Source: Flavobacterium sp. UMI-01 (GTDB lineage Bacteria; Bacteroidota; Bacteroidia; Flavobacteriales; Flavobacteriaceae). From it: a DNA stretch of 64,000 bases. Both the position numbers and the translations under genes were made by a program. Shown one piece after another: positions 30,272-63,957 of the stretch. Within the stretch, counting starts at the first letter, position 1; every line of letters starts with the position of its first letter. The notes under the pieces are model-generated. The model made no database searches. It saw nothing but the letters and a program-made list of their open reading frames with translations, and had not been told where the DNA came from. The DNA lies in NCBI RefSeq assembly GCF_019656315.1, contig NZ_BPLU01000019.1, forward strand, positions 1 through 64,000, read 5' to 3'.

Positions 30272-31252
30272 CTATTTGATACTAAAATCCCTCGGCTTTT
30301 TATTTTTTCCTAAAGCCTTATTGATGGCTGCTTTCGCCAAAGGTTCCATCACTTTATACCCTTCTAAATTGGGATGCACGGTATCGCGACCGTATTCTTT
30401 TTTCAAACCTTTTTCCTCATTAACTAAAGCCGAATAATAATCCAAATACAGGATTCCATTGTTACGGGCATAATTTTGAAGCAAACTATTTAGCTCCGTG
30501 ATTTTCGCAATGGGTTCAATAGAAGGACTCCAAGAATAACTACTCGCTGGTAAGACCGATGCTAATATGACTTTTATGTTATGGGCTTTGGCCAATTCCG
30601 CCATAGAAAAAATATTTTCGGCAATTTCAGCTATGCTGATTGGTCCTGTATTGCCTGCAATATCGTTGGTTCCGGCATGAATGACCACTATTTTCGGATG
30701 CAATTGAACCACATCTTGTTTGAATCGCAACAACATTTGAGAAGTCGTTTGCCCACTTATACCACGACCAATATAATTGTTTTGAGTAAAAAAATCAGGA
30801 TCAAAATCGACCCATCTTTCGGTAATGGAATTCCCCATAAAAACCACTCTATTTTCTTTTTTCCCTAGAGCTTTAAGTTCGCTATTGGCTTTTTTGTATT
30901 TATTCAAATTAGCCCAATCGTCATTTGGAATTAGTTGAATTTTAACCACCGTAGTTTCTGAACTCGGTGCTTTTTCAGGTAAAAAGATGGTCAGTTTCCC
31001 ATCGATTAAAACTGTTTTTAGTTTTTTAGTGGGTTCAGTTAGCAAAGTTGCTTGTCGGGGTTTTATCGCTCTATCAATCACCAGTTTGCCATCTCCTGGC
31101 CAATGATTAACATGCGCCAACACAAAACCATCTTCGGTTGTGGAATAGCTTCCCCAGTCGGGTTTTGCATAAGTGATATGCTGTGCCAATGTAGCATTTA
31201 TATGAAATACAAAGCCAATGGCAATCATTAAAAATTTCTTGTAAATTTTCAT
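30272..31252 (-). CDS. SGNH/GDSL hydrolase fused to a GH29-type C-terminal domain
   Basis: 326 residues with a signal peptide ending LAQ. Residues ~27-110 (KPDWGSYSTTEDGFVLAHV, WPGDGKL, VVKIQL) match the C-terminal beta-sandwich of the GH29 fucosidases in this locus (WGRYTKKDNVIYAHVFDWP). The SGNH esterase domain follows: block I VFMGNSITERW (catalytic Ser), block II GRGISGQTT, block III HAGTNDI and block V DTVHPNLEGY (Asp and His). It probably removes ester groups, such as acetyl, from the glycan. It is the last gene of the PUL, separated by a terminator from GH29. A broken paralogue remnant lies 3.5 kb away at 26632-26787. Confidence 0.88.
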   Translation of the reverse strand: MKIYKKFLMIAIGFVFHINATLAQHITYAKPDWGSYSTTEDGFVLAHVNHWPGDGKLVIDRAIKPRQATLLTEPTKKLKTVLIDGKLTIFLPEKAPSSETTVVKIQLIPNDDWANLNKYKKANSELKALGKKENRVVFMGNSITERWVDFDPDFFTQNNYIGRGISGQTTSQMLLRFKQDVVQLHPKIVVIHAGTNDIAGNTGPISIAEIAENIFSMAELAKAHNIKVILASVLPASSYSWSPSIEPIAKITELNSLLQNYARNNGILYLDYYSALVNEEKGLKKEYGRDTVHPNLEGYKVMEPLAKAAINKALGKNKKPRDFSIK

Positions 31253-31327
31253 ATTGTATAGTGTATTGGTTGAAGCTACAGAAAGTGGTTTGACAAAGTA
31301 AATGAATAAAATTTATAAATTACAATC

Positions 31328-31395
31328 TGCTAAAATCTGCCAAATCTGTGTGCTATTTTTTTTCACGCAGATTTATGCAGATTAAAATGATTTTT
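31328..31395. repeat. short degenerate atctg repeats
   Basis: The spacer repeats aaatctgc/aaatctgtg three times and then the related cacgcagatttatgcagatt (31364-31383), partly inverted. Text of this kind is frequent in flavobacterial intergenic DNA; no function known. It overlaps the leader of the SGNH gene. Confidence 0.35.
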
Positions 31396-31466
31396 TTTGA
31401 TTGATTTCAAGAAAAAAATCTATGCTTAACCAGATCTCACCCAATCTTAGATAAACCTCATTTGGT

Positions 31467-31523: not shown

Positions 31524-32897
31524 TTATTTAGCCAACTCAATTTTCACTACCGTAACGGGAGCGTCTGGAGCTATCATCGGAACATCAACTAATACTTCAC
31601 TGGATGTTTTCAACGCTTTTAATTCTACTCCTGGATTAGTTAACAAAGTCACTTTTTTAAACTTAATGTCTTTATTTAACTTTAGCAATCCGTCTTTTGG
31701 CCAATCAAAAACATGAGCATAAATTACGTTGTCTTTTTTAGTATAACGACCCCATTTTGGTTTTTCGTACGGACTTGCTTTAGCACCATAAATTGCTTCC
31801 GCATTTTTCTTAGTCCATTGTCCCATTGCCTCTAAACGACGAATACTTTCAGCTGGAAATCTTCCGAAACCGTCAGGACCTATGTTCAATAAAAAGTTAC
31901 CCCCTTTAGAAACAATATCTACTAATTTTTCAATTAAATCTTCACTACTTTTCCAGTTCGTATCTGATGGTTTATAGCCCCAAGTGCCATTCATTGTCAT
32001 ACACGCTTCCCAATCGGTAGCAATTCCTGTATCTGGAATTTCTTGCTCAGGCGTACCAAAATCCCCTGCAAAGTTACCTTCGGCATTCATCCCTTCCATC
32101 CCTTTTCTACCTTTATCAACTCTATTGTTTACAATTGTATTGGGTTGAATCTCACGAATGAAATTGTATAGCTCTTTCCCCATCTCGGTCGTATAATCTG
32201 AAATCCAATCCCCATCAAACCAAACCACACCAATATCACCATAATTTGTCAATAATTCTTTGACCTGTGGCTTCATATAGTTTTTGAAATATTGAGGAAA
32301 TTCTGGGTTCACCACAGATGGATCATCGTGTTGTGCAATATTGTAATTTGGGTACAAATTCCCTTGCGCTTGTGGATGGTGCCAATCTACAATAGAATAG
32401 TACACACAAAATACAATCCCTGCTTTTTTACAAGCTACAGACAATTCTTTAATCACATCACGTTTGAAGGGTGAAGTATCCATCACATCATAATTAGATA
32501 CTTTAGAATCCCACAAACTGAAACCTTCGTGGTGTTTAGACGTAATAACAATATACTTCATCCCAGCATCTTTGGCCATTTTTACCCAAGCGTCAGCATC
32601 AAACAAAGTAGGATTAAACATTTTTGGAAATTGTTCGTAATCCTTCACGGTATAATCCAATTTATCCATCGCCCACTCTGCTCCGCCGCCTGCTATTTTA
32701 GTACCGCGTTCTCCTCCAATAATAGAATATGCTCCCCAGTGGATAAACATCCCAAATTTAGCATCACGCCACCACGCCATACGCTCGTCATCAGACAGTT
32801 TTTTTACTTTTGATTTACTTTGAGCAACTCCCGTATTTACATTTAATAGTGTTACTAATACAAGGACCAATAATCGCCTAACTATTTTCATTTTCAT
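31524..32897 (-). CDS. GH29 alpha-L-fucosidase (fucosidase 1)
   Basis: 457 residues, signal peptide ending VAQ. The (beta/alpha)8 catalytic domain begins WWRDAKFGMFIHWGAYSI and contains SKHHEGFSLWDS. The nucleophile is D228 in VVWFDGDW; a candidate acid/base is the Glu in GDFGTPEQEIP. The C-terminal sandwich (KWGRYTKKDNVIYAHVFDWP) is complete. Retaining exo-fucosidase of the periplasm or surface, freeing L-fucose from glycan side chains. Translated 22 bp after the GH141-like gene, as the last gene before a terminator. Confidence 0.93.
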   Translation of the reverse strand: MKMKIVRRLLVLVLVTLLNVNTGVAQSKSKVKKLSDDERMAWWRDAKFGMFIHWGAYSIIGGERGTKIAGGGAEWAMDKLDYTVKDYEQFPKMFNPTLFDADAWVKMAKDAGMKYIVITSKHHEGFSLWDSKVSNYDVMDTSPFKRDVIKELSVACKKAGIVFCVYYSIVDWHHPQAQGNLYPNYNIAQHDDPSVVNPEFPQYFKNYMKPQVKELLTNYGDIGVVWFDGDWISDYTTEMGKELYNFIREIQPNTIVNNRVDKGRKGMEGMNAEGNFAGDFGTPEQEIPDTGIATDWEACMTMNGTWGYKPSDTNWKSSEDLIEKLVDIVSKGGNFLLNIGPDGFGRFPAESIRRLEAMGQWTKKNAEAIYGAKASPYEKPKWGRYTKKDNVIYAHVFDWPKDGLLKLNKDIKFKKVTLLTNPGVELKALKTSSEVLVDVPMIAPDAPVTVVKIELAK

Positions 32898-32919: not shown

Positions 32920-35280
32920 TTATTTTGTTTTAATTGTGATTTGTTTTTCGGCTTGATTTCGCATCACGACCAATGCCAATTCGTCTGTTTTGTTTTCCAA
33001 ATTAATTTTGAAAAAATCTTGGACGTTTTTGACTTTTTTTCCTGCCGCTTGTAAAATTACATCGCCTTTTTTGATGCCATTATTTTGTACCGCAGGACTT
33101 TGATTCCAAATGCGCAACACAATTACCCCTTCAGGCGAATTTAATCCATAAGCCGATTGTTCTTGTTCTGAATCAACACTTTTAATATTGTTACGCAACC
33201 AAGCCACCTCCGGACTGCTTTTCTTTTCAGATGGGTCTTTGATTACAGGAACTTCAGGTGTTTTGGCTATTTTTTTAAAGGCTTTTTTTTGAACACCAAA
33301 CTTATCCATTGGGAAGTTTTTGAAACCTATTTTTAATGCTGGTGAATTATCTGCTACGCTAAAATCCATTTGGGCTGGATTTTTAAACATCGGGTCGCCA
33401 TAAGCACTGTTTTTATCTCTGTCATACACTTGAGGTTTCATCATCGCTACTTCGTTTGGAAAGAAATTATAATCCATTTCTTTTCCCCAACCTAACAAAC
33501 CTACGTCTTGATAGGTATCCCCCACGATGTTGTGTTTGAACACATCTTCGCTTTTGGCAAACCATACATGCGGATGTAACGAATTGTTGACCATGATATT
33601 ATTTTCGGCCACACGGTAAAAACCTTCTCTTAATTTCAATCCGCTATTCAACAATAAATTGTTGTAAATATGATAATTAGACGAACCATCATCTAAATCA
33701 ATATCCCAACCGTGGTCACAACGAAAACGGTTGTTGCGGATAATCGTTGTTTTAATCGCATCCCATTTCGGCATCGTAGGAATGGCGGTAGTTAAACTAT
33801 CCATCACATTGCGTTTGGGGTGCCAAAAACGGTCTCTACCCCAAGAATTAAACGAACCGTGATCGCTGGTTTCCAATACCGTATTGAACACATCATTAAA
33901 TTCTAAAATATGACCTCCCCAGGTGCCATCACCAATGTTAATCCCTGCTCTAGGCACATCGTAAATACTGTTGTGGCTTACGGTAATGTCCATTGCCATC
34001 GAAATTTGAACCCCTGCCGTTTGTTTTTCGGTTCTACCAATGCGGTGAATTAAATTGTCTTTGACCAAGCATTCACGCGGATACAATTCGTTTTTAGGTC
34101 CAGGAAGGGTGTCCATTTTGGCCAAAGGCACAAATTTTCCATAATTGAACGAAGGCGAACGCACTGCCGAAGCATCCCCGACAAACGAAACCGCACTAGC
34201 ACCATTATCGTGAATATGGTTTCCTGTAATTTGCAATCCTTTGTTGTACTTGCTTGCCATGATGACATTTCCTCCTAAATAAGCAAATTCGCTATCCTTA
34301 ACCACACAGTTTTCTGTTCCTTCAAAAAACAACACACTCCCGCGATAAATAGACCAATCGCTACGCAATAAAGGCTCAAAGGTTTCCATAAAGGTACGCT
34401 GCGTATGACTAAAGGTAATTCCGCTGATGGTTACATCTTTCACTGGATTTTCTAAACTTCCTTTTAGTTGAACCAAATCTTTCAGTACAGCCACTTCCAC
34501 TTTCGCATCCGAAAGCGCCACAGCTTTTGTAGGCCAATAATACAATTGATGGTTTTGTTTATCCAAAAACCATTCGCCAGGGCTGTCTAACTCTTCAAAA
34601 ACATTCTCCACCATACGGTATTCTTCGTGTGGTTTAGAACCTCTGTTGTTTTGGTGACCTCCTTCTAAAATAGGTTCGCCTTTCGCATTCACACCTGTGA
34701 TTACCCAGTGAAAACCACCCCATTTACCGCTATGCAGCGCATGAAAGAAAGCGCCTTTTGGATTTTTCCAACTGGCGATGCGTTCTTTCGAAATAGCATC
34801 AGCAGCAAAACCTTGCCAATACTGCGCTTTTTCATTGTAATTAGGATAACGTGCTAAAATTTGGGGTTTGCCATTGATAACCAATTGATCAAAATTTACA
34901 TTTTCAGGAACTGAAGTTACATAGATGTTTTCGTTGTATTTTTTCCATTTAGCATTCAACACTACCGAACCTTTGATACTCACTTCAGAAGCTTGGGTTC
35001 CTTGTATCGTCAATCCGCTTAAGGAAGCAGGAATCAGGATGGCTTCTGTCAATCGGTATTCTCCTGGTAAAATGTTAATTACAATTGCCGTATTATTATT
35101 CTTTGCTTTCAGCTGAGAGGCTTTCGAAATGGCTGCTTTGATAGTCGCAAAAGGTTTCGCTTTGGAACCATCTCCATTGGCAGTGCTTTTTTGTGACACA
35201 TAAATCGCAACCGCAGTGGGTGGCATGGCGTATGAAAAACACAGGCTTAAAAAAGCAATTAGGATACTTAATCGTTTCAT
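32920..35280 (-). CDS. right-handed beta-helix enzyme, GH141-like, with C-terminal PDZ domain
   Basis: 786 residues, signal peptide ending near AVA. The N-terminus (YVSQKSTANGDGSKAKPFATIKAAI) is the usual opening of parallel beta-helix hydrolases. Helix rungs carry repeated N-x-I/H-x-x-x-G text (LQITGNHIHDNGASAVSF, ITVSHNSIYDVPRAGINI). The segment GGHILEFNDVFNT...SDHGSFNSWGRDRFW resembles GH141 fucosidase/xylanase-like proteins. After ~residue 690 a PDZ-like domain follows (GVIVLRIWNQSPAVQNNGIKKGD, IKTK end). A PDZ on a secreted carbohydrate enzyme is uncommon. Family assignment is from memory of the pattern; another beta-helix family is possible. Confidence 0.75.
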   Translation of the reverse strand: MKRLSILIAFLSLCFSYAMPPTAVAIYVSQKSTANGDGSKAKPFATIKAAISKASQLKAKNNNTAIVINILPGEYRLTEAILIPASLSGLTIQGTQASEVSIKGSVVLNAKWKKYNENIYVTSVPENVNFDQLVINGKPQILARYPNYNEKAQYWQGFAADAISKERIASWKNPKGAFFHALHSGKWGGFHWVITGVNAKGEPILEGGHQNNRGSKPHEEYRMVENVFEELDSPGEWFLDKQNHQLYYWPTKAVALSDAKVEVAVLKDLVQLKGSLENPVKDVTISGITFSHTQRTFMETFEPLLRSDWSIYRGSVLFFEGTENCVVKDSEFAYLGGNVIMASKYNKGLQITGNHIHDNGASAVSFVGDASAVRSPSFNYGKFVPLAKMDTLPGPKNELYPRECLVKDNLIHRIGRTEKQTAGVQISMAMDITVSHNSIYDVPRAGINIGDGTWGGHILEFNDVFNTVLETSDHGSFNSWGRDRFWHPKRNVMDSLTTAIPTMPKWDAIKTTIIRNNRFRCDHGWDIDLDDGSSNYHIYNNLLLNSGLKLREGFYRVAENNIMVNNSLHPHVWFAKSEDVFKHNIVGDTYQDVGLLGWGKEMDYNFFPNEVAMMKPQVYDRDKNSAYGDPMFKNPAQMDFSVADNSPALKIGFKNFPMDKFGVQKKAFKKIAKTPEVPVIKDPSEKKSSPEVAWLRNNIKSVDSEQEQSAYGLNSPEGVIVLRIWNQSPAVQNNGIKKGDVILQAAGKKVKNVQDFFKINLENKTDELALVVMRNQAEKQITIKTK

Positions 35281-35334: not shown

Positions 35335-38118
35335 TTAGAAGACAATCACCGCTTTTTTAGTGGCTTTAGACAACCTAAATTCCAGTTGCTCTGGATTGGC
35401 TCTGTTGATTTGCCCTTCTCTGGTATCGACTACTGTATCATTTTCATACACATTGATTTTTGCTAATTTTTTTCCTTCTAAAAACGGAACTTGCAACAAC
35501 ACAGGTCCATCGCTTTCTATAACGAAGGAATTCTCTGAGCGTTCAATCGATACCGAAACAGCTTCGCCTGAAGCCGTAATGCCCCAACCGTTTTGTTCGA
35601 ACTTATACATGCCAGAAACAAACAAATAACTGATAGCCGTAGCCTCTTTCGCCTTTCTAACAATAGAAAAAAGTCCTTTTTGATAACCTTTTTCTTCTGC
35701 TACTATCGTTTTATCATTGGCATTTAATATGATCGTATCAATTGTTTTCTTATCATCTAATACGACTTCAATCAGTTGTGTACTCGGATTATCTTTAAGC
35801 GAACTGTATTTTACCTCCGCAATCGGATTTTTTTCTCCCTCAATATACGGATTATACACCATTGCAAAAGGATTTTCCCAAGCCGAAGCTTCACGTTTTA
35901 CAATCAATGTTTGCATCGGGTCATCCAATATCGCTGCTGGAGCAGTTCCTTTGCTAATCGCATTGGATTTGGGTGCCAAGGCCGTATAGATGCTTTGATT
36001 TTCACTGCCTTTTATCCACAGTTTCATCAAATTATCTGCTTGTCCTTTAGTTTTTAGTCTAAAAAGAGCTTGTACATCCTTATTTGTTTCGATTTTCTTT
36101 TTTTCCTTCAAATAATCGTATGCTTTTAAATCGCCTTTTTTAGAACCAAAATCATCTGTATTGGTCAAGCTAATCGCTTTTGAATTACTATCTAATATTT
36201 CAAGTGTTTGCCCTAAATTATGGTAAAAATAATCGTGTCTTTGTTTGCCGTCACTTTGTTTTTTAGACCTAAAAACATCTACAATATATGATTGATTGGT
36301 GTTCGATTTGATTATCGCCGTAAAGCGCTGTTGATCTGCCTTGGCTTTGGGTTCAAAAAAAGATACATTGGCAAAGGTTAATTTATCAAAAGCAGGAATC
36401 TCGCCTACTTTAGGAAAACAATTTTCTAATTTAAACGGATGCGAACCTCTCATCGCTCCATAATCTGAAATTCCATCGACCACTACGGTGTTGTGCGCTG
36501 GAAATCTCGAATAGTAATCTCTGTGATCAATGTGCCAATAACTAGGTCCTTTGCCAGCGTCTGGGCCTAAAACATATTGATTGGCGTACAACTCCATCGA
36601 AATTCCGTTTACATGAGAATGATTTCCGTAAGAACCCACAGTCGAAACCATCGCAGCGGCTTTTCCAGCACCTAATCTTTGGTTGAACATACTCACATTC
36701 GACGCATAAAAAGTTGGCGTGGTCAATTCGGCTAAACCGTCTTTTGAGCTAGTCGCTTTTAAATTGTCCACATAAAAAAACAACTCAAAAAAATCATCTG
36801 CTTTACGTTTGTATTCGCCATTGGCAATCATTTGCTGTAGCAAACCGGATAGCAATGTTTCTTTTTCTTCATCTTTATACTTTCGATAATTTGAAATTAA
36901 CAATTCGAAATTTTCAGGAGGCAAGGGTTTGTGACTCGAATCACCAAAACCTACCATATATCCATTGGGAAATAAATATTGGAACGAAGCCAAAGCAGCT
37001 TTTTCGACAATAGGATATTGCGACAATTCATTGTTATTAGTATAATGATCCAATAAGGTAAAAATATCCAATAGCGACTGAATCACATGCACCGAATAGC
37101 CTGAACATTCTGGCCACATCCCGTTTTCTTGGTCGTAAACCAACAAGGATTCCTTAATAGACAACTGTCTTTCAGTAGAGGTCGTAAAGGTATGGTCTAA
37201 AAAATATTCACGACCTTTGCCGTTTTTATACTGGCTATTATCCTCTAACGCCAACGCCACATACATCAAAAAACGCGCTTGAAAAAGGTTCCAATTGTTG
37301 TCTGGAATTCCGTTCACGATAATTTGGTCTCCCCATTTTTGAAAAACGGCTTCACAATGCGGAATATTGACTTTTTCTTTTTTTATAAAATCATACAAAA
37401 AGTCGTAAGTCGTGGCCAATTTCACCAATATTCCTTCGTGAATCACTTCAAAAGTGGTTAAACCCGATATGCGTTGTTGGGTTCCGTTTTCCAAATCAAC
37501 AGGCGCTTCCAGATAATACATCCCTTCCATATAGGTCTCGAAAACCGGTTTGGCAAAACGAGCGTATTTTTCGTCACCCGTAACCCAATACAAGAAAGCG
37601 GCATCGGCTGCCAAATCCATAATTTGTTCATTGATTTTTTCAATGGTAAAACCCACTTTTGACGGATGAACCCATTCTTTTACCTTTTTTTTGTTTTCTA
37701 AAAAAAGACCTCTCGGGTCGTCTAAATACGGAATGACGTCTTCCAACTTGGGACGTGCGTAATCCGAAGCCCAATCTCTTGTTCCTGAAAAACGAACCGT
37801 AGGCACAGGAGCTTTTCCTGCGGAATGGTCAAATTTTCCACCCTTTAAAAATATTTTGCTGTGCTTGGTCTTCCAGTTCATTTGCAAGCGCGACACCAAC
37901 CAGCTAGGGTCTTTTTCGCAAAAGGCAATGTATTTTTCAACTTTGGCTTTTTTAGATTCCACTAAGCTGTTTTTCCAAGACACTGTTTTTAAGGTTTCTA
38001 AAAACTGTGGTTTATCGGCATTGGTGGTGAAAATTCTAGGATGCGTGGTTGTTTGTCCAATAGAAATAATGGGACTCAACAGCAATAATACTCCTAAAAA
38101 GGGCAATAATTTCTTCAT
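35335..38118 (-). CDS. heparinase II/III-type polysaccharide lyase 1
   Basis: 927 residues, signal peptide ending SIGQ. The N-terminal alpha/alpha toroid begins HPRIFTTNADKPQF and includes NNWNLFQARFLMYVALALED and WPECSGYSVHVIQS. The heparinase II/III beta-sandwich follows, with the His-containing GNHSHVNGISMELYAN and YYSRFPAHNTVVVDG. It is a distant paralogue of the next gene: both have SRLxMxWK, AP(V/I)PTVR and HNL-type blocks in the same order. Such enzymes cleave uronate-containing glycans by beta-elimination and leave an unsaturated end for GH88. The PL number (PL37/PL40-like size) is not assigned. Confidence 0.85.
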   Translation of the reverse strand: MKKLLPFLGVLLLLSPIISIGQTTTHPRIFTTNADKPQFLETLKTVSWKNSLVESKKAKVEKYIAFCEKDPSWLVSRLQMNWKTKHSKIFLKGGKFDHSAGKAPVPTVRFSGTRDWASDYARPKLEDVIPYLDDPRGLFLENKKKVKEWVHPSKVGFTIEKINEQIMDLAADAAFLYWVTGDEKYARFAKPVFETYMEGMYYLEAPVDLENGTQQRISGLTTFEVIHEGILVKLATTYDFLYDFIKKEKVNIPHCEAVFQKWGDQIIVNGIPDNNWNLFQARFLMYVALALEDNSQYKNGKGREYFLDHTFTTSTERQLSIKESLLVYDQENGMWPECSGYSVHVIQSLLDIFTLLDHYTNNNELSQYPIVEKAALASFQYLFPNGYMVGFGDSSHKPLPPENFELLISNYRKYKDEEKETLLSGLLQQMIANGEYKRKADDFFELFFYVDNLKATSSKDGLAELTTPTFYASNVSMFNQRLGAGKAAAMVSTVGSYGNHSHVNGISMELYANQYVLGPDAGKGPSYWHIDHRDYYSRFPAHNTVVVDGISDYGAMRGSHPFKLENCFPKVGEIPAFDKLTFANVSFFEPKAKADQQRFTAIIKSNTNQSYIVDVFRSKKQSDGKQRHDYFYHNLGQTLEILDSNSKAISLTNTDDFGSKKGDLKAYDYLKEKKKIETNKDVQALFRLKTKGQADNLMKLWIKGSENQSIYTALAPKSNAISKGTAPAAILDDPMQTLIVKREASAWENPFAMVYNPYIEGEKNPIAEVKYSSLKDNPSTQLIEVVLDDKKTIDTIILNANDKTIVAEEKGYQKGLFSIVRKAKEATAISYLFVSGMYKFEQNGWGITASGEAVSVSIERSENSFVIESDGPVLLQVPFLEGKKLAKINVYENDTVVDTREGQINRANPEQLEFRLSKATKKAVIVF

Positions 38119-42725: not shown

Positions 42726-42845
42726 ATGTTGATATTTATTGTTTTTTTTATCGGTCATATGTAATTCGCATATCATCATTGGTGTTTGCGACCAAATTTT
42801 GAGTCATGCTCATTTCATACTCTTATTAAATTATCAATCTTTAAT

Positions 42846-54738: not shown

Positions 54739-54776
54739 ATTAAATTATTAACCAAAGACTATAAACTATTATTCTT
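54739..54776 (-). promoter_or_regulatory. AraC-type tandem operator, upstream of GH88
   Basis: Plus-strand tataaactattattctt (54760-54776) matches the distal half-site upstream of fucosidase 2 at 14 of 17 positions. Twenty-one bp before it, attaaattattaaccaa (54739-54755) matches the proximal half-site at 11 of 17. The pair has the same order and spacing and lies 147-184 bp upstream of the start. Support is moderate because all sites are AT-rich. Confidence 0.4.
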
Positions 54777-54916
54777 TTAGCCCCTTATCGCTTGCTGTTT
54801 CTTGGCTTTGACCGATTTCAGCATTATTTTATTAAAAAAAATAAAAGATTTTACGTTTAACAGCTTTACCTATCCTTCCCTTCTTAGGCGCGTCATTATT
54901 TCTATTTAATAATCTT

Positions 54917-54943
54917 AAAAAAGCGACTTAAAATCGCTTTTTT
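54917..54943. terminator. perfect 10-bp hairpin with A/T tails
   Basis: aaaaaagcga (54917-54926) pairs perfectly with tcgctttttt (54934-54943) across a 7-nt loop. It works in either direction. On the minus strand it would stop read-through from the SusCD operon toward GH88. Confidence 0.8.
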
Positions 54944-55465
54944 ATAAAACTTTTCTTCAAAAAAATTAAATAAACAGAAGCTACAAACTTAAGATAATTT
55001 GTACAAAAAACTTTCATTCCAATAAAATTACCTCATAAAAACAACTAGACATTATATAGACAAAGACATCAGTGACCTTTTTAGAATCGTCATTAAACAA
55101 GAAGAGTTCCATTAAATTAAACCCAAATTACGCAGTATAACTCTACTCAACTTTATTTTTTTTCAAATTCAGGCACTTACTCAAAATGAATAAAACATAC
55201 TTCATTCACTCAACAACTTTTTCATTAATTGTATGAATTAATTTTGAAATTGCCACAATGTGGTATGAAGACCAAAGCATTCCCATTAAGTAAGCAAAAA
55301 AACTAACTTAAATTACCCAGAAGCCATTTTATTTTGGCAAAAAACACTGTTTAATATGTTTCCGTTTTATCAATCATTTTTACTCTTATCATTTTTAAAC
55401 TTTTACTCTCAAAAAAAAAACTCGAGACTCGAAAACGATAAGAAAAACTAGCATCCAACACTCAG

Positions 55466-55503
55466 ATGAATTATAATTTATACTCATGAGGCATTAATTT
55501 ATA
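55466..55503. promoter_or_regulatory. third operator-like motif copy, in the PUL gap
   Basis: atgaattataatttata (55466-55482) is the exact reverse complement of the half-site at 51515-51531. About 21 bp further, atgaggcattaatttata (55486-55503) shares the last nine bases. Orientation is opposite to the other two pairs, and no gene starts close by, so this could be a remote site or chance. Confidence 0.3.
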
Positions 55504-55850
55504 CCTAATAAAAATTTAATCTTTTAATATTGTAGTACAAATAACAAAATGCATGTTTTACTTGTAAAAAAGTAACTGAATAGGTAGAAAAACAATCCTT
55601 AAGGACTAGTAATTAAAATCCATAAGAAATCAGGATTCCCATTAGGACTCCTTTATTTTAGAACAAATACCTATTCTTATTTAGGAATTTCTAACCCAAT
55701 GGTTATGTCTTGGTTTAAATTACTGAAAAACTATTGTTATTGATAAGGCATTCCAAATGATGAAAATAAATCCTGTCCGGACACAAAATCTAGGGAGGTA
55801 ATACAAATAAATTCTTTGTTAGAAATTTAGTTAGTTTGATTGGTTTTTTG

Positions 55851-55889
55851 AAAGCGGCAGTAAATTTAATTATTTACTGTCGCTTTTGT
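55851..55889. terminator. hairpin followed by a T-rich tract
   Basis: aaagcggcagtaaat (55851-55865) pairs with atttactgtcgcttt (55872-55886, one mismatch), followed by tgtttta. It lies in the PUL gap with no gene directly upstream on either strand, so what it terminates is unclear. Confidence 0.65.
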
Positions 55890-56190
55890 TTTATTCAAAA
55901 CCGAATTCAATTAAACTCAACAGGCATTACTTTACTTCATTTGAATTCTTTCAATCGGAAAACCAGTTCATTTCATTCCAAATCCCAAACGAAGACATAC
56001 GGATTGATTTTGCTTCAATAGAGGCACTTTTATAACCTTTCACAACAACTAATATACTTTTATTTAAATAACCGCAAAAAAACCCTTATTTGCAGTCTAA
56101 AAGAACACAAATACTTTAACTATTGCATGTAGAGAATTGTAGCTAATAAAAAAAAATTGGATTAACTAAATTCTAAATTACGTTTACACC

Positions 56191-56231
56191 AAAAAAAGAA
56201 AGAGAGGCTATCTATTACTAGACAACCTCTC
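56191..56231 (-). terminator. terminator of the fasciclin-SusC-SusD-DUF5017 operon
   Basis: gagagg (56202-56207) pairs with cctctc (56226-56231) around an 18-nt loop, with a plus-strand A-run before it that becomes a T-run on the minus strand. It starts 23 bp after the DUF5017 stop. Confidence 0.7.
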
Positions 56232-56253
56232 CTCAAATCAAAAAACAATAAAA

Positions 56254-57165
56254 TTATTCTACTACGATTGTAAACTCAGTAACTTTATCTTTTCTACCTT
56301 GTGATGTAGCATTTACAGCTGCAACAGTAGCTTTATAAGTCCCTGGAGTTTGATACACATATTCAAAAGAACTTGGTGTAAATCCAGTATTAAGTGTTCT
56401 TAGCGTAACAACTCCTGTTGCATCACCGATGGCTGTTTTTAAATTAATAGCCGAAGAGATAACCCAGTCATCATCATCTAAATTTCCTGCAGCAAGACCC
56501 ACATGTGTCAACGAAGCACTGTTTACAGTCCATTGGGTTGCATTCTCATCAAAAGTTACATTAGTAAACGTAGCGTTACTAACACTTGTAGCATTAACAT
56601 AAACTTCACCATCAGCATGTTTTGTTTTGAACGAGAAAGCACCAATAGTCCACGTTCTTTGAGCGGTTGTTTGAGTATTACTACCTACATATCGATACGC
56701 AATAAACAACGGTTTCCCCTCAGCTTGGTAAGGTGATAAGTCAACCACACCCGAGGCAACATTGGTAGTCGTTGTTCCCAAAACTACTTTGTCTGTGATA
56801 TCAACCCATGTAGCATTTTGCACATTTGTCTTATCGTAAACACTGTTAAAATCATTAGAAACTAATACTCTTATGTTGTTTACCCCAACAGTACCGCCAC
56901 TTACGTTACTATTAAAAGAAAATTCAGCATTTCCATTAACGTCATTTTCAAAAATAGAACGCTTGCTGTATTCTTTACCTAATTCACCTGAAAAGAAATA
57001 CAAATAATCGGTTTTACCTGAAAAAGAAAACCTAACCGTATCACCTGCTTTATAATTTAATTTATCTAATCTGGCCTCAAAAGATGGAGTTTCTACCTCA
57101 ATATCACTACAAGAAGTTGCAATGATACCTAACATCATTATCGTAAAAATTATTTTTTTCATCAT
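56254..57165 (-). CDS. DUF5017-domain lipoprotein (SusE/F-like surface glycan-binding)
   Basis: 303 residues with a lipoprotein signal (MLGIIATSC, then SDIEVE). The first ~130 residues (FEARLDKLNYKAGDTVRFSF, DYLYFFSGELGKEYSKR) match DUF5017, followed by a beta-rich domain (WTIGAFSFKTKHADGEVYV, VYQTPGTYKATVAAVNA). Such lipoproteins follow SusD in many Bacteroidota PULs and are thought to bind the glycan at the surface. Stands 13 bp after SusD, last gene of that operon. Confidence 0.85.
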   Translation of the reverse strand: MMKKIIFTIMMLGIIATSCSDIEVETPSFEARLDKLNYKAGDTVRFSFSGKTDYLYFFSGELGKEYSKRSIFENDVNGNAEFSFNSNVSGGTVGVNNIRVLVSNDFNSVYDKTNVQNATWVDITDKVVLGTTTTNVASGVVDLSPYQAEGKPLFIAYRYVGSNTQTTAQRTWTIGAFSFKTKHADGEVYVNATSVSNATFTNVTFDENATQWTVNSASLTHVGLAAGNLDDDDWVISSAINLKTAIGDATGVVTLRTLNTGFTPSSFEYVYQTPGTYKATVAAVNATSQGRKDKVTEFTIVVE

Positions 57166-57178: not shown

Positions 57179-59257
57179 TTATTGAAAACCTGGATTTTGT
57201 TTAGCCAATCTATTGTTCGAAATTTCATCCAATGGTATTGGCAATAAATTCCATCTATCACTAATGTTTTTACCAGAGTTTGCAGCAATATCTCTAAGAG
57301 ATCCACTATTAGAAGCAATATGAATGATTTGGTTACCATTCGGGAATCTTTCCAAACTTCCATTAACCGCTAGATCTCCCATTTCCTTCACTTTTTGAAC
57401 TAACATTCCCCAACGAATTAAATCTCTTTTTCTAAATCCTTCATAACACAATTCACGCATACGCTCATCTTGTATTACTTTTCTAAATTCATCTTTATTC
57501 GCTGTTTGAGCGGAAGTCAAAGCTCCTGTCATTTTAACCGCTGTAGCTGTTGCAGCCACACCAATATACGTAAACACAGCACCAGTTGAAGCAGCAGCAG
57601 AAGCACCAGAGGTATGTGTAGGAGCTACAGAAGTAGAAGTTCCAGCTGTGGTTACTCTATACAATAATCCATTTGCTGGATTTACAACGTTTGTGTTTAC
57701 AAGAAACGCTTTGTTAGCCTCCCATTGAGTACCTAAATAAATAGTGGTCGGTAAAGAAGCATAAGCGCCTGGGTTACTCATCGTAAGAGATGTTACAGCA
57801 CCTCCAGCAATAGTTGAACCAATAGTTGCTTTTACACTAGAAGAACCACCTACTGTAGTAATTTCTGTTGGAGCAATGGTATAACCACTACCACCTGATG
57901 TTAACGTAAGTACAATACTATTAGTAGATGTCAACGAACCGTATGCTCTTGCTCTAATTTGATTAACCAATTCAATTGATTGAGGTGTTGGTCCGTTGAT
58001 TTCGTTATCAGCTTCAGCATACATCAACAAAACGTCAGCATAACGTAGAATAGGCCAGTTTTGTGGCGAACCATTGTTTTCTTTAACAAATTCATTTTCT
58101 CTTTTCCATTTACCAGGCCATCTACCCCACCAAACATTCCAAGCAACAGGATTTTTAACCGCATCTGTAGTTAAATTACCTCCTGAATAACTCCAAGGAT
58201 TTACACAAATATCTCTTCTTTTGTCTGGAGACAAATCAGTAGAACGTGTCGGATTGTAAAAAGACTCATAACTTCTATACAATACAGCAGTTGTTAACAC
58301 TTGGCATAATCCTTTACCCATACTAGGTGTTTGACCATTATATTGTGGGCATAACATTGCATTAGCATTCAATGCCTCTCTAAGGTCAGGGTTATTAGGA
58401 TCTGCTTTAAACTCAACTTCCCACATACTTTCTTTGAAAGCTACATCGTAAAGATCTTGTGAGTGATTGATAAAAATTTGCTCAAAATTTGGATTTAACT
58501 TATGAAATCCAGAAGCGATTACTTTTTGAGCCCAAGCTTTTGCTTCAGCATAACGTTTTGTATCGTTAAGAGGATTTCCTGCCGCATACAAACACGCCCT
58601 TGCTAAAATTCCTTGTACAGTAGTATTGGTAATTCTACCACTTTGATAAGGTACAATAGTTGCTGGAGTTTGCTTGCTCAAAAGTTGTTCCGCAGCAGTC
58701 ATTTCAGCAATTACAAAATCATACACTTCTTTTTGAGGTGTAAAAGCAAAATGTGTATCCTGAGGTGTTTTAACCGATTTGGTTCTCAAAGGAACATCTC
58801 CATACCATTGGGTAGCTAAAAACAAATAATATGCTCTTAAAAAACGAGTTTCTCCCAAAAATATATTTTTACGCTCTGGAGTCAAATTAGGCACTTTGTC
58901 AATATTCTCCAATACCGTATTCGCTCTATTAATACCTATATACAAGCTGTTCCAAAAACTACTATTGGCTCCATCTGATGGTAAACCTGTATAAGTACCC
59001 ATTGTAGTTGCATTTAATCCTGAACGGTTATAGGCCTCATCAGTACTTTGAGCAGTAATCATTTGATAACCCGAAGAATAAAAGTTAGCTTGATTCATCG
59101 CGTCATAAACACTATTTAAATACGTATTTAATTCGGCTTCGTTATTAAAATACGTTTCTAATGTGTTTGTTGTTGGTTTGGTGTCCAAAAAATCTGTGCA
59201 TGAGCTGATGCTTAAAATACCGCTAAAAGCTATTAATGCTAATATTTTCTTTTTCAT
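57179..59257 (-). CDS. SusD/RagB family lipoprotein with internal insertion
   Basis: 692 residues, well above the usual 500-550. Lipoprotein signal ILSISSC, then TDFLD. The N-terminal TPR region (ETRFLRAYYLFLATQWYG DVPL read without break) and PILRYADVLLMYAEADNE followed by ELVNQIRARAYG are typical. Then residues ~440-585 form an insertion rich in Gly/Ser/Thr (TSGGSGYTIAPTEI, GGSSSVKATIG, THTSGASAAAS). The normal SusD text resumes at DEFRKVIQDERMRELCYEG. SusD caps the SusC channel and binds oligosaccharide. The insertion would add a separate beta-rich domain or loop at the outer face. Follows SusC by 12 bp. Confidence 0.9.
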   Translation of the reverse strand: MKKKILALIAFSGILSISSCTDFLDTKPTTNTLETYFNNEAELNTYLNSVYDAMNQANFYSSGYQMITAQSTDEAYNRSGLNATTMGTYTGLPSDGANSSFWNSLYIGINRANTVLENIDKVPNLTPERKNIFLGETRFLRAYYLFLATQWYGDVPLRTKSVKTPQDTHFAFTPQKEVYDFVIAEMTAAEQLLSKQTPATIVPYQSGRITNTTVQGILARACLYAAGNPLNDTKRYAEAKAWAQKVIASGFHKLNPNFEQIFINHSQDLYDVAFKESMWEVEFKADPNNPDLREALNANAMLCPQYNGQTPSMGKGLCQVLTTAVLYRSYESFYNPTRSTDLSPDKRRDICVNPWSYSGGNLTTDAVKNPVAWNVWWGRWPGKWKRENEFVKENNGSPQNWPILRYADVLLMYAEADNEINGPTPQSIELVNQIRARAYGSLTSTNSIVLTLTSGGSGYTIAPTEITTVGGSSSVKATIGSTIAGGAVTSLTMSNPGAYASLPTTIYLGTQWEANKAFLVNTNVVNPANGLLYRVTTAGTSTSVAPTHTSGASAAASTGAVFTYIGVAATATAVKMTGALTSAQTANKDEFRKVIQDERMRELCYEGFRKRDLIRWGMLVQKVKEMGDLAVNGSLERFPNGNQIIHIASNSGSLRDIAANSGKNISDRWNLLPIPLDEISNNRLAKQNPGFQ

Positions 59258-59269: not shown

Positions 59270-62200
59270 TTAAAATGAAAGATTAAAACCTGCTGTTACA
59301 GTTAATGCTCTTGGATAAGCAGAGAAATCATAACCTGCAGTAAGTGTATTACCTTTGGTTGAATTTTCAGGGTCAGTAGAAGAATAATTGGTCCAAGTAA
59401 TCAAGTTCTGAGCTGACACATACATTCTTAATGATTTCAATCCTAATTTTGAGCTAATCTCAGGTGTAAAATTGTATCCTAATTGAACCGTTTTCAATCT
59501 TATAAATGAAGCATCTTCAACAAAACGTGTTGAATACACCCTTACACCAGTTGCGTTTGTTCTGAACATCGTATTACTTCTGTTCTCCTCTGTCCATCGG
59601 TCAGCATACGAAGCAAATTGATTCGTATTTAATCCTACTACAGTACCTCCTTCAAGATATAATCTATTGGCATTGTACGTATCATTACCATAAGACCATT
59701 GCATGAAAACATTCAAATCAAATTGTTTGTATCTGAAATTATTACTAAGTCCTCCAATATGTACTGGGAAAGGATTACCAATAATCGTTTTATCATCGTT
59801 GTTAACCAAACCATCACCATTTACATCTCTATACTTTGGATCTCCAGGTTGTACTCCTGTAGCAGTTTGACCAATTTCCCCTCCAATTCCATAAGGAATA
59901 TTTGGTTTCAAAAGATAAGTACCATTTGGTTGAATGTTAAAGTCTTCTACTTGGTAATTTCCTTCATATACAAATCCATACATAGCTGTAATAGGCTTAC
60001 CAATTTGAGAAATATACCCAACAACTGTATTCATGGCATTACCTGCTCCAGGAACATTTCTTTGTAAATAATCATCTCCACCACTCAAAGCTTCAATACG
60101 GTTACGGTTGAATGAAATATTGAAGTTCGTACTCCAGTTAAAATCTTTTGTTTTAATATTTGTAGTATTAAGAGTAAACTCAAGACCAGTATTACTGATC
60201 GAACCAATATTGTCAATAATATTTGCTGGAGTCCCCACACTAGGTGCTAATCTAGAATTCAATAACAAATCGAAAGTGGTCTTTTTATAATAATCTACCT
60301 CTAACAAGAAACGATCTTTATAGAATCCTATTTCCAATCCTGCATCTACTTGTCTAGTGCTTTCCCATTTTACTTTTTCATTCCCTAATGAATTGATAAA
60401 ATAAGAAAGATTTGCGCTGCTGATATCACCTCCAAAACCATAGTATTGTGGTCTTCCACCAGCTAATTGAGTGATTGAAGAAACATAAGCAAAATCATTA
60501 ACTCTATTGTTACCTACTACACCATAACTGGCTCTTAATTTACCCGTAGATAACCATTTTTTGTTTTTCAAGAATTTTTCTTGACTAAATCTCCAAGCAG
60601 CCGAACCAGATGGAAAAATACCAAAACGGTTTTCTGGTGCAAATTTAGAAGAACCATCCGCACGTACGGTTCCTCCTAAGATGTATTTACCACCTGCTAA
60701 TTGATAACTTGCTCGAGCGGCATAAGACAACAATCTGTAAGTAGAACTATTAGAATAGGTTTGAGAATACACATTCAATACCCCACCTAGAGCCGCCATA
60801 CCCAAATTTTCATTTTGTACATTGGTCGCGCTATAGCCATAACCTGATCTTTCGTTGATTTGGAATGTATAAACTCCAGTCAATGTCAAGCGATGGTTTC
60901 TGTTAAACGCCTTATCAAAAGTCAATACATTATCCACAGAATAATCTACTCTTTCTCCAAAACCAATACTACCATTCACTCCATTTACAGGGCTAGTTCC
61001 TCTACGTGTTTTTGAATTATAAAATTGCTCATTTCTTGAATTTCCAATATTAACAGCTCCTGTCACCCTGTACTTTAACGCTTTATTAAACTGATACTCC
61101 GCATATAAGTTACCTGTAAAACTGTTACTAAAAGAAGCTTTGTACTCATTTTGAAACGATGCGGTTGGATTAACCAATGTACGCGTTAATTCTCCCGGGT
61201 CTAATAATTCTTCATCAATAAAATCATCGTACAAATCAGTCACATCCAATGTTGCCCCTGTAATAGGACGGTATGCCCAAATTTGATACATCAAGTTGAA
61301 CTCCACATTGTTTCCTCCATCATTATTTTGATCACGAGGAGTTTGCCCAAAAGATCTACTAGAGGCATAATTAATGTTACTTCCTACTTTTAATTTTTCA
61401 TTCACTTGCTGGTCCAGTGTAGCTCTTCCTTGGTAACGTTTGAATCCACTATTGATAATGATACCATCTTGGTCAGTAATCGAACCCGAAAGACTATAAC
61501 GGGTATCTTTAGTACCACCTGTCATCGACAAATAATGATTTTGAAAAGCAGCTGGTCTAAAAACTTTAGTTTGGAAATCAGCTCCTTCAACTCCTCTATA
61601 CGACTCTAGAGTTTTCCCATCTTTAAAATAAGTGTTTGCTGCAACAGTTGGATTAATATCCGCTTGCAACCTCACAAATTCATAAGGATTCATCAAATCA
61701 ACATTTCTATTAATCCTATTAAAACCATAATATTGGTTATAGGTGATAGTAGGCGCACCCACTTTACCTCTTTTAGTAGTAATTACAATTACCCCATTTG
61801 CTCCACGCGAACCGTAAATAGAAGTAGCCGAAGCATCTTTCAGAATATCGATTGTTTCAATCTCAGCTGGGTTGATTGCATTGTTGTCTGGATCCTCGAT
61901 TGGAAAACCATCAATTACATACAACGGTGAGTTGTCATTGTTAATCGAGTTATTCCCTCTAATCACAATATTCAAAGCGTCCCCTGGTTGACCATCACCT
62001 GCAATTACTTGAACTCCAGCAACCCTTCCAGCAAGTGCTTCTTCAAAAGAACGTACTGGAGCTTTTTGCAAATCAACTACATTTACAGATGATACTGACC
62101 CTGCCAAATCCATTTTTTTGGTTGTCCCGTACCCTGTTTGAATCACCACCTCATTAAGATTTGTAGATTCTTCTTCCAAAGTCACGTTAATAGACGTTTT

Positions 62201-62518
62201 ATTTCCAACTGTAACTTCTTTGGTTACAAAACCAACAAATGAAAATTGCAACACCGAATTATTATCCGCTTTTATACTGTACTTTCCGTCCATTGAAGTA
62301 GCGGCATATTTGGTTGTTTTTTTCACCTTTACCCCTGCACCAGGAATAGGCTGACCTGTATTGTCCACCACAATCCCTGTTATTGTCTTTTCCTGTGCTA
62401 CTGCATTATTGATATTAAAAAACACCAACATAAAAAGAACAATCAATTTGTAATATCGAGAAGCAACCTGCACTTCCTCATTACTCGTTTTATATCTTTT
62501 GTTTATAATCATCTCCAT
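59270..62518 (-). CDS. SusC/RagA family TonB-linked outer-membrane transporter
   Basis: 1082 residues. Signal peptide ending NAVAQ, then a carboxypeptidase-D-like regulatory domain (ITGIVVDNTGQPIPGAGVKV, NVTLEEES), a TonB-box-like ESTNLNEVVIQTGYG and the plug (LAGSVSSVNVVDLQKAPVRS). The barrel begins near IYGSRGANGVIVITTKRG and ends with an aromatic residue (TVTAGFNLSF). It imports oligosaccharides across the outer membrane, driven by TonB. Fasciclin protein upstream (5 bp), SusD downstream (12 bp): clearly one transcript. Confidence 0.95.
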   Translation of the reverse strand: MEMIINKRYKTSNEEVQVASRYYKLIVLFMLVFFNINNAVAQEKTITGIVVDNTGQPIPGAGVKVKKTTKYAATSMDGKYSIKADNNSVLQFSFVGFVTKEVTVGNKTSINVTLEEESTNLNEVVIQTGYGTTKKMDLAGSVSSVNVVDLQKAPVRSFEEALAGRVAGVQVIAGDGQPGDALNIVIRGNNSINNDNSPLYVIDGFPIEDPDNNAINPAEIETIDILKDASATSIYGSRGANGVIVITTKRGKVGAPTITYNQYYGFNRINRNVDLMNPYEFVRLQADINPTVAANTYFKDGKTLESYRGVEGADFQTKVFRPAAFQNHYLSMTGGTKDTRYSLSGSITDQDGIIINSGFKRYQGRATLDQQVNEKLKVGSNINYASSRSFGQTPRDQNNDGGNNVEFNLMYQIWAYRPITGATLDVTDLYDDFIDEELLDPGELTRTLVNPTASFQNEYKASFSNSFTGNLYAEYQFNKALKYRVTGAVNIGNSRNEQFYNSKTRRGTSPVNGVNGSIGFGERVDYSVDNVLTFDKAFNRNHRLTLTGVYTFQINERSGYGYSATNVQNENLGMAALGGVLNVYSQTYSNSSTYRLLSYAARASYQLAGGKYILGGTVRADGSSKFAPENRFGIFPSGSAAWRFSQEKFLKNKKWLSTGKLRASYGVVGNNRVNDFAYVSSITQLAGGRPQYYGFGGDISSANLSYFINSLGNEKVKWESTRQVDAGLEIGFYKDRFLLEVDYYKKTTFDLLLNSRLAPSVGTPANIIDNIGSISNTGLEFTLNTTNIKTKDFNWSTNFNISFNRNRIEALSGGDDYLQRNVPGAGNAMNTVVGYISQIGKPITAMYGFVYEGNYQVEDFNIQPNGTYLLKPNIPYGIGGEIGQTATGVQPGDPKYRDVNGDGLVNNDDKTIIGNPFPVHIGGLSNNFRYKQFDLNVFMQWSYGNDTYNANRLYLEGGTVVGLNTNQFASYADRWTEENRSNTMFRTNATGVRVYSTRFVEDASFIRLKTVQLGYNFTPEISSKLGLKSLRMYVSAQNLITWTNYSSTDPENSTKGNTLTAGYDFSAYPRALTVTAGFNLSF

Positions 62519-62523
62519 TTATG

Positions 62524-63957
62524 CTATTTAATAACTTGGTTAATAATATTTAAAACACCATTCTTTCTGATCTCATTTCTAGTCGAAATAGTTCCAGGCG
62601 CTGTATTGAGTGGTCCTTTAGCTGTGTAGAGTGTCGTATTGTCAAATTCTACATCAGTTCCGCCTATACTTAAAAGATTAAACGTTCCTACTGGATATGA
62701 ATTAGAATAAAATGACCCTTCAAAAAAGTGTTTGCTCAAAAGCTGTATTAAAATACTTGGACTAGCTGTATTAACCACATCAATTGTTTCATATCCTTCA
62801 TCTCTAAAAGCTTGATTGCTTGGTGCAAAAATGGTATAGTCACTTGTTCCAGATAGCATTCCGCTAAAGTCAACTCCTCCAGTACTAGCTCTATCTACTG
62901 CTGCCACGAAAAAAGTTAAGTTACTATTTGCTCTAGCTGCATCTGAAAGGGTTAACGAAGAAGGAAGAGCAAAAACAGCACCTACACCATTCACAAAACC
63001 ATTCGTAGCCATCGCATTAGCCAAACTACGTGTCACCGCACCACCATTCACCACTGTATTATAACCCGCAATAGCATTAGGTGCATTATATGTAAAGGTC
63101 TTACTGATGGTAAGCCTTGAACTATTTAATGATAAAGAAATAAAAGGTAATTTGTATGTAAAATAAGCATTATTAATAATGTGGTTACCTACTAATTCAT
63201 CTGCGACCGTTTGAGGAGGCGTATTATTTATTGAAGTAGTCGAATTATATTTTCCCCCCATAAACTCAGCAAAAGCTGCATTTACAGGTGCAAAAACAGT
63301 AAATTGACTCGAAGAAGCTAGCTCAGCAGCATAATTTCTAGAACCTAAACTCGCTCTATTGATGGCAGCAAGAAATAGAGAATAATTAGAATTCTCCGCT
63401 AGGATATTCATAATGTTTTTGTTCGTTTTTGGAACCAATACTTTATTAATGGTTTGAACATTCCCATTTGTACCGTTCACATCTCTAGATAAAATATCAG
63501 CACCATTAGCAAAAAATACAGAAATCTCCCCCGTTCTTATTAAAATTTTTATTCTATCCAACGTGATTTCGTTCCCATCAAGCGCTGTAACTGTTACTTC
63601 TCCAGCAATAGGTTTGACCAATATCTTATTCTCAATAATATGATATTTCAATATTTTTTCCAATACAACTGGATCAGCTGTTTTAACAGATAACAAATTA
63701 GGAAAACCTGCATCTATAAAAGCTTGATTAATAGGAGCAAAAATTGTAAAATCACGCTCGTTACTTTCAAAAAAACTTCGCATACCCGCTCTGTCAATCG
63801 CAGCACTTAGATAACTATAGTTACCTGTATCATCCTTCAAAATCCTATAAACACTTACAGAACTTGGAGTTTCACGTTTGTCCTCATCACACCCCAGAAG
63901 CAATAAGGAAACCACAAAACATATTAGCTGTGGAATTTTTAATTTAAGTTTAAACAT
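62524..63957 (-). CDS. lipoprotein with three fasciclin (FAS1) domains
   Basis: 477 residues with a lipoprotein signal (FVVSLLLLGC, then DEDKRE). Three FAS1 repeats begin near YLSAAIDRAG, SLFLAAINRAS and TFFVAAVDRAS; each contains the family phrase F(T/Q/D)(I/V)FAP(I/V/S)N(Q/A)AF (e.g. TIFAPINQAFIDAGF, TVFAPVNAAFAEF, TIFAPSNQAF). Fasciclin domains act in adhesion; bacterial PUL examples are thought to hold glycan or matrix at the surface. As first gene of the SusC-SusD operon it probably serves as an accessory surface glycan-binding protein. Upstream promoter region is outside or at the edge (63958-64000). Confidence 0.88.
   Translation of the reverse strand: MFKLKLKIPQLICFVVSLLLLGCDEDKRETPSSVSVYRILKDDTGNYSYLSAAIDRAGMRSFFESNERDFTIFAPINQAFIDAGFPNLLSVKTADPVVLEKILKYHIIENKILVKPIAGEVTVTALDGNEITLDRIKILIRTGEISVFFANGADILSRDVNGTNGNVQTINKVLVPKTNKNIMNILAENSNYSLFLAAINRASLGSRNYAAELASSSQFTVFAPVNAAFAEFMGGKYNSTTSINNTPPQTVADELVGNHIINNAYFTYKLPFISLSLNSSRLTISKTFTYNAPNAIAGYNTVVNGGAVTRSLANAMATNGFVNGVGAVFALPSSLTLSDAARANSNLTFFVAAVDRASTGGVDFSGMLSGTSDYTIFAPSNQAFRDEGYETIDVVNTASPSILIQLLSKHFFEGSFYSNSYPVGTFNLLSIGGTDVEFDNTTLYTAKGPLNTAPGTISTRNEIRKNGVLNIINQVIK

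Follow-up and report, generated by a model that had tools for sequence, protein, structure and literature searches.

Here we describe a polysaccharide utilization locus (PUL) of Flavobacterium sp. UMI-01, a relative of marine seaweed degraders, that fills positions 30272-63957 of the 64,000-nucleotide stretch analysed (contig NZ_BPLU01000019.1, positions 1 to 64,000; the window). We propose, with somewhat better than even confidence, that it serves a brown-algal fucose-containing sulfated polysaccharide (FCSP) whose backbone contains 4-linked glucuronate, with sulfated fucoglucuronomannan (SFGM) as the likeliest candidate; that its target is some fucose-containing sulfated uronate glycan we consider highly probable. 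We read the cluster as the oligosaccharide-processing part of a system for fucoglucuronomannan, or for a close glycan of fucose and uronate. In what follows, we observe enzyme families, gene order and an association with relatives of the lyase FdlA, and infer every substrate assignment.

Brown-algal FCSPs are abundant and slow to degrade, and the cleavage of fucans has already been studied; among the papers listed by our literature searches, which left most subscription journals outside, none described the steps that follow the lyase on the fucosylated glucuronate/mannose type. For this post-lyase pathway, the cluster offers a list of enzymes and a named candidate substrate. The system is of a known kind, to which we add lyase clades without a characterised member and a more precise substrate assignment, and its co-travel with FdlA is the new part.

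FdlA relatives beside the enzyme cluster

The locus consists of 18 open reading frames (ORFs), all on the minus strand, as are all features placed in it below; the plus-strand ORFs listed in this range are short and overlap them. Families were assigned by profile searches against Pfam and NCBIfam and by sequence searches against the PDB, which recovered the families that an earlier sequence-only reading had named, on the strand and over the range it had claimed. With an adjacent SusC/SusD pair and co-directional carbohydrate enzymes alongside, the locus can be classed, by sequence, as a putative Sus-like PUL. Two of its products, PLa (927 residues, 35335-38118) and PLb (890 residues, 38504-41176), are PL40-like polysaccharide lyases, and a GH88 unsaturated glucuronyl hydrolase (411 residues, 53357-54592) matches the structures 3wiw (E 3e-90) and 1vd5, an unsaturated glucuronyl hydrolase (E 4e-69). 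The Asp of HDxGF and that of IIDNMMN, both of which we take to be catalytic, are conserved in nine of nine GH88 sequences. Beta-elimination requires a 4-linked uronate, which fits the SFGM backbone, and the unsaturated residue would be left for GH88 to remove; the lyases and GH88 point to an eliminable uronate independently of FdlA.

The substrate clue comes from FdlA, which is reported to cleave SFGM, with the repeat -4GlcA-beta-1,2-[Fuc3S-alpha-1,3]-Man-alpha-1-, into trisaccharides, and which is 56% identical to FdlB (PMC9410043; statements on this and the other papers cited refer to the accessible parts of their texts). Scanning for relatives of PLa, we found 36 named loci, which come from 16 named genera, as well as metagenome-assembled genomes (MAGs). 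We take most of these genera to be Flavobacteriaceae, and the nearest named relative found was Flavobacterium fluviatile, whose PLa is 92% identical. The genome-level search covered 31 of the 36 named loci, leaving out the MAG or short-contig loci L058, L059, L065, L069 and L071, and was run without L044; in draft genomes, distance is undefined for a copy on another contig. The FdlA family (E ≤ 1e-40) is present in 25 of the 30 PLa-bearing named genomes, with its nearest copy on the PLa contig in 25 of 25, and lies within 50 kb of PLa in 23 of 30, compared to 1.9 expected under random placement. Copies at least 44% identical occur in 23 of the 30 genomes, in 21 of them within 50 kb (1.1 expected), whereas the control family, PL7 alginate lyase, has 113 copies spread over all 30 genomes and none within 50 kb on the PLa contig.

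A third lyase type, PLc, lies within 50 kb of PLa in 34 of 35 copies (28 genomes), and every one of the 30 genomes has GH88 (E ≤ 1e-100), located within 50 kb of PLa in 25 of them. GH88 and FdlA are neighbours less than 5 kb apart in at least five genomes, a count that leaves out two of 44 GH88 matches (on contigs other than that of PLa) and most FdlA matches, and three of the five FdlA copies concerned are just 34-35% identical. In Flavicella sediminum, the second gene past the GDSL esterase encodes an FdlA homologue (7xza, E 2e-238) that bears a fucolectin-like domain and a type IX sorting tail. Across a 299-genome sample of the family, scored on at most two PLa, three PLb and five FdlA candidates per genome, FdlA occurs in 5 of 8 genomes with PLa orthologs (at least 60% identity) compared to 2 of 291 others (Fisher 6e-8); for PLb orthologs (at least 68%), the figures are 5 of 5 compared to 2 of 294 others (Fisher 1e-9). 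These statistics ignore kinship among genomes, and the sample overlaps the 30 named genomes, G002 and L051, for instance, being one Flavicella contig. Six genomes of the sample are positive for both FdlA and PLa or PLb, and in three of them FdlA is 7, 11 and 32 kb away. The general proposal of the sequence-only reading, an algal glycan with uronate in or near the backbone, fucose branches, sulfate and acyl esters, is supported by these FdlA relatives, by GH88 and by the lyases, and is here sharpened towards SFGM; fucosylated chondroitin, which it also listed, gains nothing from the evidence.

The enzymes travel together in a largely constant order. We counted a gene as present at 50% identity or more, and as the loci reach no further than 10 kb to either side, these counts are lower bounds: over the 36 loci, at least 28 hold GH29a, 27 the GH141-like gene, 23 the GDSL esterase, 22 each GH97 and the major facilitator superfamily (MFS) porter, 20 the sulfatase S1b, 18 PLb, 17 the carbohydrate esterase, 9 each the propeller enzyme and GH88, 5 GH29b and 3 the sulfatase S1a, whose place is taken by a more distant S1 in many other loci. 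All counterparts found lie on the strand of PLa. Neither GH29c nor any of SusC, SusD, DUF5017 and FAS1 appeared in the 36 loci at this identity within the 10-kb flanks. Gene order is the same as in the window in 28 of the 30 loci holding at least five of the 14 enzyme and porter genes (the remaining six loci hold one or none and are uninformative on order), and is thus conserved beyond chance. In the genomes of five loci (L037, L038, L040, L041 and L049), one GH88-like match contains one in-frame stop; a decayed duplicate is one possible explanation, a stop close to where the match ends another.

The two PL40-like lyases

PLa and PLb, which are 28% identical to each other, had been called heparinase-type lyases by the sequence-only reading. 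They are instead PL40-like, both by sequence similarity (to the ulvan lyase Uly1040 at E 9e-45 for PLa and 2e-34 for PLb) and PLb also by the fold of its model; a weak Hepar_II_III_C match is confined to PLa, and the name heparinase was dropped given the Uly1040 matches and the PLb model. That model (predicted template modelling score, pTM, 0.82) superposes on 9vtk with Z 38.9 at 3.5 Å over 701 residues, and the second-best structure is the alginate lyase Dp0100 (Z 28.4).

The site residues of Uly1040, a PL40 enzyme of Alteromonas macleodii, are N245, W246, E301, Y305, D358, H485, H487 and Y511 (PMC12915356). We compared these eight positions over 101 sequences, with the PLa, PLb and PLc clades drawn by identity and score thresholds and then checked by a tree. 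All eight residues are retained throughout the PLa clade (40 of 40, the window's PLa included) and the PLc group (24 of 24). The PLb clade (21 of 21) retains N245, W246, E301, Y305, D358, H485 and Y511, whereas the position of the metal ligand H487 is never His in its 21 sequences (T in 6, A in 9, S in 3 and G in 3; Thr520 in the window's PLb). Changing H487 to Ala abolished the activity of Uly1040, and R, T or N is reported at this position only rarely across sequences (PMC12915356). The 16 sequences outside PLa, PLb and PLc differ mainly at W246, with H in 11.

In the tree, Uly1040 (671 of 856 residues) nests with 14 of these 16 other sequences at a support of 0.99 and not with PLa, PLb or PLc; support is 1.0 for the PLb clade and just 0.55 for PLa, from which PLc is not separable. 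Median identity to Uly1040 is 38% for the 16 sequences compared to 22-24% for PLa, PLb and PLc, and the window's own PLa and PLb share 26% and 24% identity with this enzyme. As judged from sequence, PLa and PLb represent clades outside the Uly1040 ulvan-lyase clade, without a characterised member. Automatic annotation may call such clades ‘ulvan lyase’, and if our reading is true, PL40 matches may overstate the use of ulvan in marine genomes. A bolder proposal, which we regard as doubtful, is that the locus and FdlA-type lyases encoded elsewhere form a complete and widely shared SFGM pathway, in which PLa, PLb and PLc would be new lyase families or subfamilies acting on the SFGM backbone and not on ulvan, and the PLb line would be active without the metal-bound His reported as essential in Uly1040.

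Proposed route, alternatives and known systems

If SFGM is the substrate, secreted FdlA-type endo-lyases encoded elsewhere in the genome would cut the polymer, and SusC and SusD, assigned by family membership, would import the resulting oligosaccharides. The periplasmic steps would comprise the removal of acyl groups, sulfate and fucose by the two esterases, both S1 sulfatases and two or three of the GH29 enzymes, the cleavage of the Man-alpha-1,4-GlcA bonds that remain by PLa and PLb through beta-elimination, and the release of the unsaturated uronate by GH88, after which the MFS porter would take in the sugars. Further, unnamed branches may be the targets of GH97, of the GH141-like protein and of the GH117-like propeller enzyme. 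Such a two-step route, with a secreted lyase followed by a PL40-type enzyme on oligosaccharides, has already been suggested for ulvan degradation in Formosa agariphila, where a secreted endo-lyase acts, PL40 is suggested for the oligosaccharides and GH88/GH105 follow, although the backbone there contains rhamnose and no fucose (PMC8360166).

Several points weigh against SFGM as the target. GH97, GH141 and GH117-like enzymes are superfluous for its simple repeat, and the SusC/SusD pair is not conserved together with the enzymes. No FdlA-like gene lies inside 30272-63957: the source genome has five FdlA-family matches (the best 55% identical), all on another contig, C37. The family gave no match in 5 of the 30 PLa-bearing genomes (both Aureibaculum, isolate 2-961, Flexithrix and Arenibacter), is represented in both Maribacter genomes by copies below 44% identity only, and is separated by 1.4 and 3.3 Mb in G014 and G236, which belong to the six positive genomes mentioned above; many of its matches are just 31-36% identical and may differ in activity. 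Co-location with FdlA could also reflect the large size of fucoidan islands and is therefore not proof, the control family being PL7. Furthermore, recombinant FdlA and FdlB are reported to degrade fucoidans not known to hold a GlcA-Man backbone, so FdlA need not mean SFGM, and they are reported to have given neither an A232 signal nor an unsaturated product, which puts their lyase activity in dispute (PMC6267234). The mannose-6-phosphate isomerase gene (manA) next to the locus is weak support for mannose; as proof of mannose it was rejected, with one match in the source genome and with 1 of 30 other genomes having a copy within 50 kb of PLa. Separately, Flavicella has three FdlA-family copies, and that at G312:C1:133361-135718 is followed about 90 bp on by a ManA-like gene.

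An unlikely though not negligible alternative is a general fucoidan PUL, in which the lyases and GH88 would clear minor uronate parts from the side chains of a sulfated fucan or galactofucan. GH29, GH97 and GH117 are indeed listed for predicted FCSP PULs (PMC6298971), GH141 is reported from most identified fucoidan PULs, with some members being endo-fucanases (PMC12786026), FdlA is reported to be active on ordinary fucoidans (PMC6267234), and the source genome (4.02 Mb, 76 contigs) has 14 GH29 and 68 sulfatase-domain matches. However, the clustering of two lyases with GH88, and of PLc near PLa, suggests that uronate is a main chain component. An ulvan-type PUL would explain why Uly1040 is the nearest solved relative of both lyases, and a PL40-containing locus of like kind has been read as ulvan-directed (PMC8072126), but the identity of 24-26% and the tree placement of Uly1040, on which ulvan was set aside, make this highly unlikely. 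No rhamnosidase profile match was found among the 18 proteins, and ulvan is not known to call for fucosidases. Fucosylated chondroitin sulfate, or some other uronate-fucose glycan of animals or bacteria, would suit GH88, GH29, S1 and the lyases, and the PDB relatives of GH88 include an unsaturated chondroitin disaccharide hydrolase; we nonetheless give it hardly any credence, as the 18 proteins show no profile match to a hexosaminidase or to a chondroitin AC/ABC-type lyase and the FdlA association points to brown algae. An ascophyllan lyase was also considered and set aside, the literature search having given nothing useful.

A different kind of alternative, which we think possible but less than probable, is that the locus is two neighbouring units, with an operon of SusC, SusD, DUF5017 and FAS1 serving another glycan than the enzyme operon from GH88 to the GDSL esterase; this is compatible with SFGM as the substrate of the enzymes. 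The two parts are separated by a 1.66-kb gap (54593-56253) without any ORF above 61 residues, at the edge of which, 3′ of the DUF5017 gene, stands a terminator-like hairpin (56199-56234, minus strand; 16 pairs, 5 of them G-C, followed by a T run), one kind of site of which the region holds 4 compared to 1.8 expected. Given the gap and the hairpin, SusC/SusD and the enzymes are probably two separate transcription units. A promoter scan of the gap stayed near chance (24 found, 19.7 expected) and its short repeats likewise look like chance. Conservation of the enzymes without this SusC/SusD also favours two units: SusD has one full-length match (E ≤ 1e-60) among the 30 genomes, a 79% identical ortholog in F. 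fluviatile that lies 58 kb from PLa, and a partial match, 38% identical, in Maribacter luteus, from a search that scored 38 candidates in 12 of the 30 genomes and may have missed weaker matches there. Against this, all genes are on one strand, and the F. fluviatile ortholog still lies between FdlA copies.

Among known systems, the sequence-only reading had named no matching PUL, yet a locus of Maribacter dokdonensis 62-1 with a like family list is in print, holding two PL40 (about 30% mutual identity), GH29, GH97, GH117, GH141 and sulfatases; it also has PL33, GH95 and GH28, the paper makes no mention of GH88, and its ulvan/fucoidan-directed substrate is itself inferred, the likeness drawn here being one of family list alone (PMC8072126). 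FdlA and FdlB of Flavobacterium sp. SA-0082 have relatives encoded near the same cluster in related genomes and may act on the same glycan, but differ from PLa and PLb in their beta-helix lyase fold and are not in the window (PMC9410043, PMC6267234). In North Sea Flavobacteriia, predicted FCSP PULs share GH29, GH97 and GH117 with the locus, and a separate type put forward for glucuronomannan shares its richness in sulfatases and GH88 but is built on GH92, GH2 and GH3, which are absent here; in the text available, no lyase is named for either (PMC6298971). Fresh macroalgae induced the GH88 of a predicted FCSP PUL in a Zobellia transcriptome (PMC9296495). Among the papers listed by full-text searches, with most subscription journals outside them, the Maribacter locus was the one close description, and none assigned such a locus to fucoglucuronomannan.

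Remaining genes and genomic setting

The other enzymes begin at the low-coordinate end with a GDSL esterase (326 residues, 30272-31252; PF13472, E 1e-25), probably a deacylating enzyme, and GH29a, an alpha-L-fucosidase (457 residues, 31524-32897; PF01120, E 4e-102) with a median identity of 82% to its relatives. The protein described as GH141-like (786 residues, 32920-35280) is a parallel beta-helix that stays just below the Pfam cut-off for PF21231 (26.3 compared to 27 bits) and matches 9rx2 (E 2e-24) and 5mqp (E 7e-16), so that the description holds with this reservation; its C-terminal PDZ domain (PF13180, residues 712-785) we judge unusual for a glycosidase. Between PLb and the porter lie S1a (523 residues, 41208-42779; PF00884, E 2e-60; best PDB match 7p24) and S1b (487 residues, 44886-46349; PF00884, E 2e-58; lipobox-like N terminus), both with a CSPSR motif, GH97 (663 residues, 42846-44837; PF10566, PF14508 and PF14509; N terminus lipoprotein-like by eye) and a PF00756-type carbohydrate esterase (269 residues, 46358-47167; E 5e-32). 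All 24 sequences of the GH97 group have an invariant Gly in K(Y/F)GF, which we take to be the position of the Asp nucleophile in retaining GH97 members.

Beyond the MFS sugar porter (444 residues, 47186-48520; PF00083, E 1e-113; median identity of relatives 83%) comes the propeller enzyme (362 residues, 48549-49637), whose AlphaFold2 model (pTM 0.85, predicted local distance difference test 79) has GH117 structures as its top matches, with Z 27.9-29.0 at just 16-23% identity and other propeller families reaching Z 26.8. Its phmmer match to GH117 has E 6e-4, and it is 77-83% identical to 10 relatives. GH29b, with a DUF5077 domain (584 residues, 49650-51404; PF01120, E 2e-89), and GH29c (437 residues, 51664-52977; PF01120, E 1e-73) follow; the Asp at what we assume to be the nucleophile position of GH29 is kept in 31 of 31 and 7 of 7 sequences and in the single GH29c. 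Across the gap lie a DUF5017 lipoprotein (303 residues, 56254-57165; PF16409, E 5e-50; lipobox-like), the SusD-like lipoprotein (692 residues, 57179-59257; PF07980 and PF14322), the SusC-like TonB-dependent transporter (1082 residues, 59270-62518; TIGR04056, E 4e-262) and a fasciclin-domain (FAS1) protein (477 residues, 62524-63957; three stretches of PF02469; lipoprotein-like by eye).

The cluster extends beyond the window edge, and its contig (C19) runs on with a hybrid two-component sensor at C19:65017-69210, the mannose-6-phosphate isomerase gene and then genes of glucuronate and xylose catabolism, all named by eye; ManA, XylA, XylB, UxuA, UxaC, a short-chain dehydrogenase/reductase and hexuronate-transporter-like genes adjoin the locus at G000:C19:69350-84322 (L001, L002). 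The catabolic genes (C19:71190-84322) would fit a uronate glycan, but have their own regulators nearby and were therefore left uncounted. Directly after the GDSL esterase gene, at 27104-30029, lie genes for an AAA ATPase, an RloB-like and a DUF4145 protein. Rfam and tRNA searches of the window gave no matches. The dnaA gene (20079-21506) is about 9 kb from the cluster, and the locus may sit near the replication origin.

In the source genome, the system seems, from its gene content, to be split over two places. PLc, GH141-like, GH95-like (by eye), GH29 and FdlA-like genes lie at C37:600-664 kb; the proteins at C37:660316 and C37:662289 share about 62% identity with proteins encoded near the GDSL esterase in Flavicella, and F. 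fluviatile carries PLa and PLc on a single contig with 11 kb between them, which together suggest the split. The C37 cluster (G000:C37:600001-680000, L102-L105) is large and sulfatase-rich, and also holds GH31 and GH116; at its end, at 664.6 kb, stands a heparinase-like protein, the Flavicella relative of which comes after the GDSL esterase. The AAA ATPase, RloB-like and DUF4145 genes occupy the spot where the cluster continues in several relatives, and are possibly an inserted module tied to the split. A heparinase II/III-like protein and a 650-residue protein without a Pfam match (L109:9278-11581 and 13689-15641) recur near the cluster in several genera.

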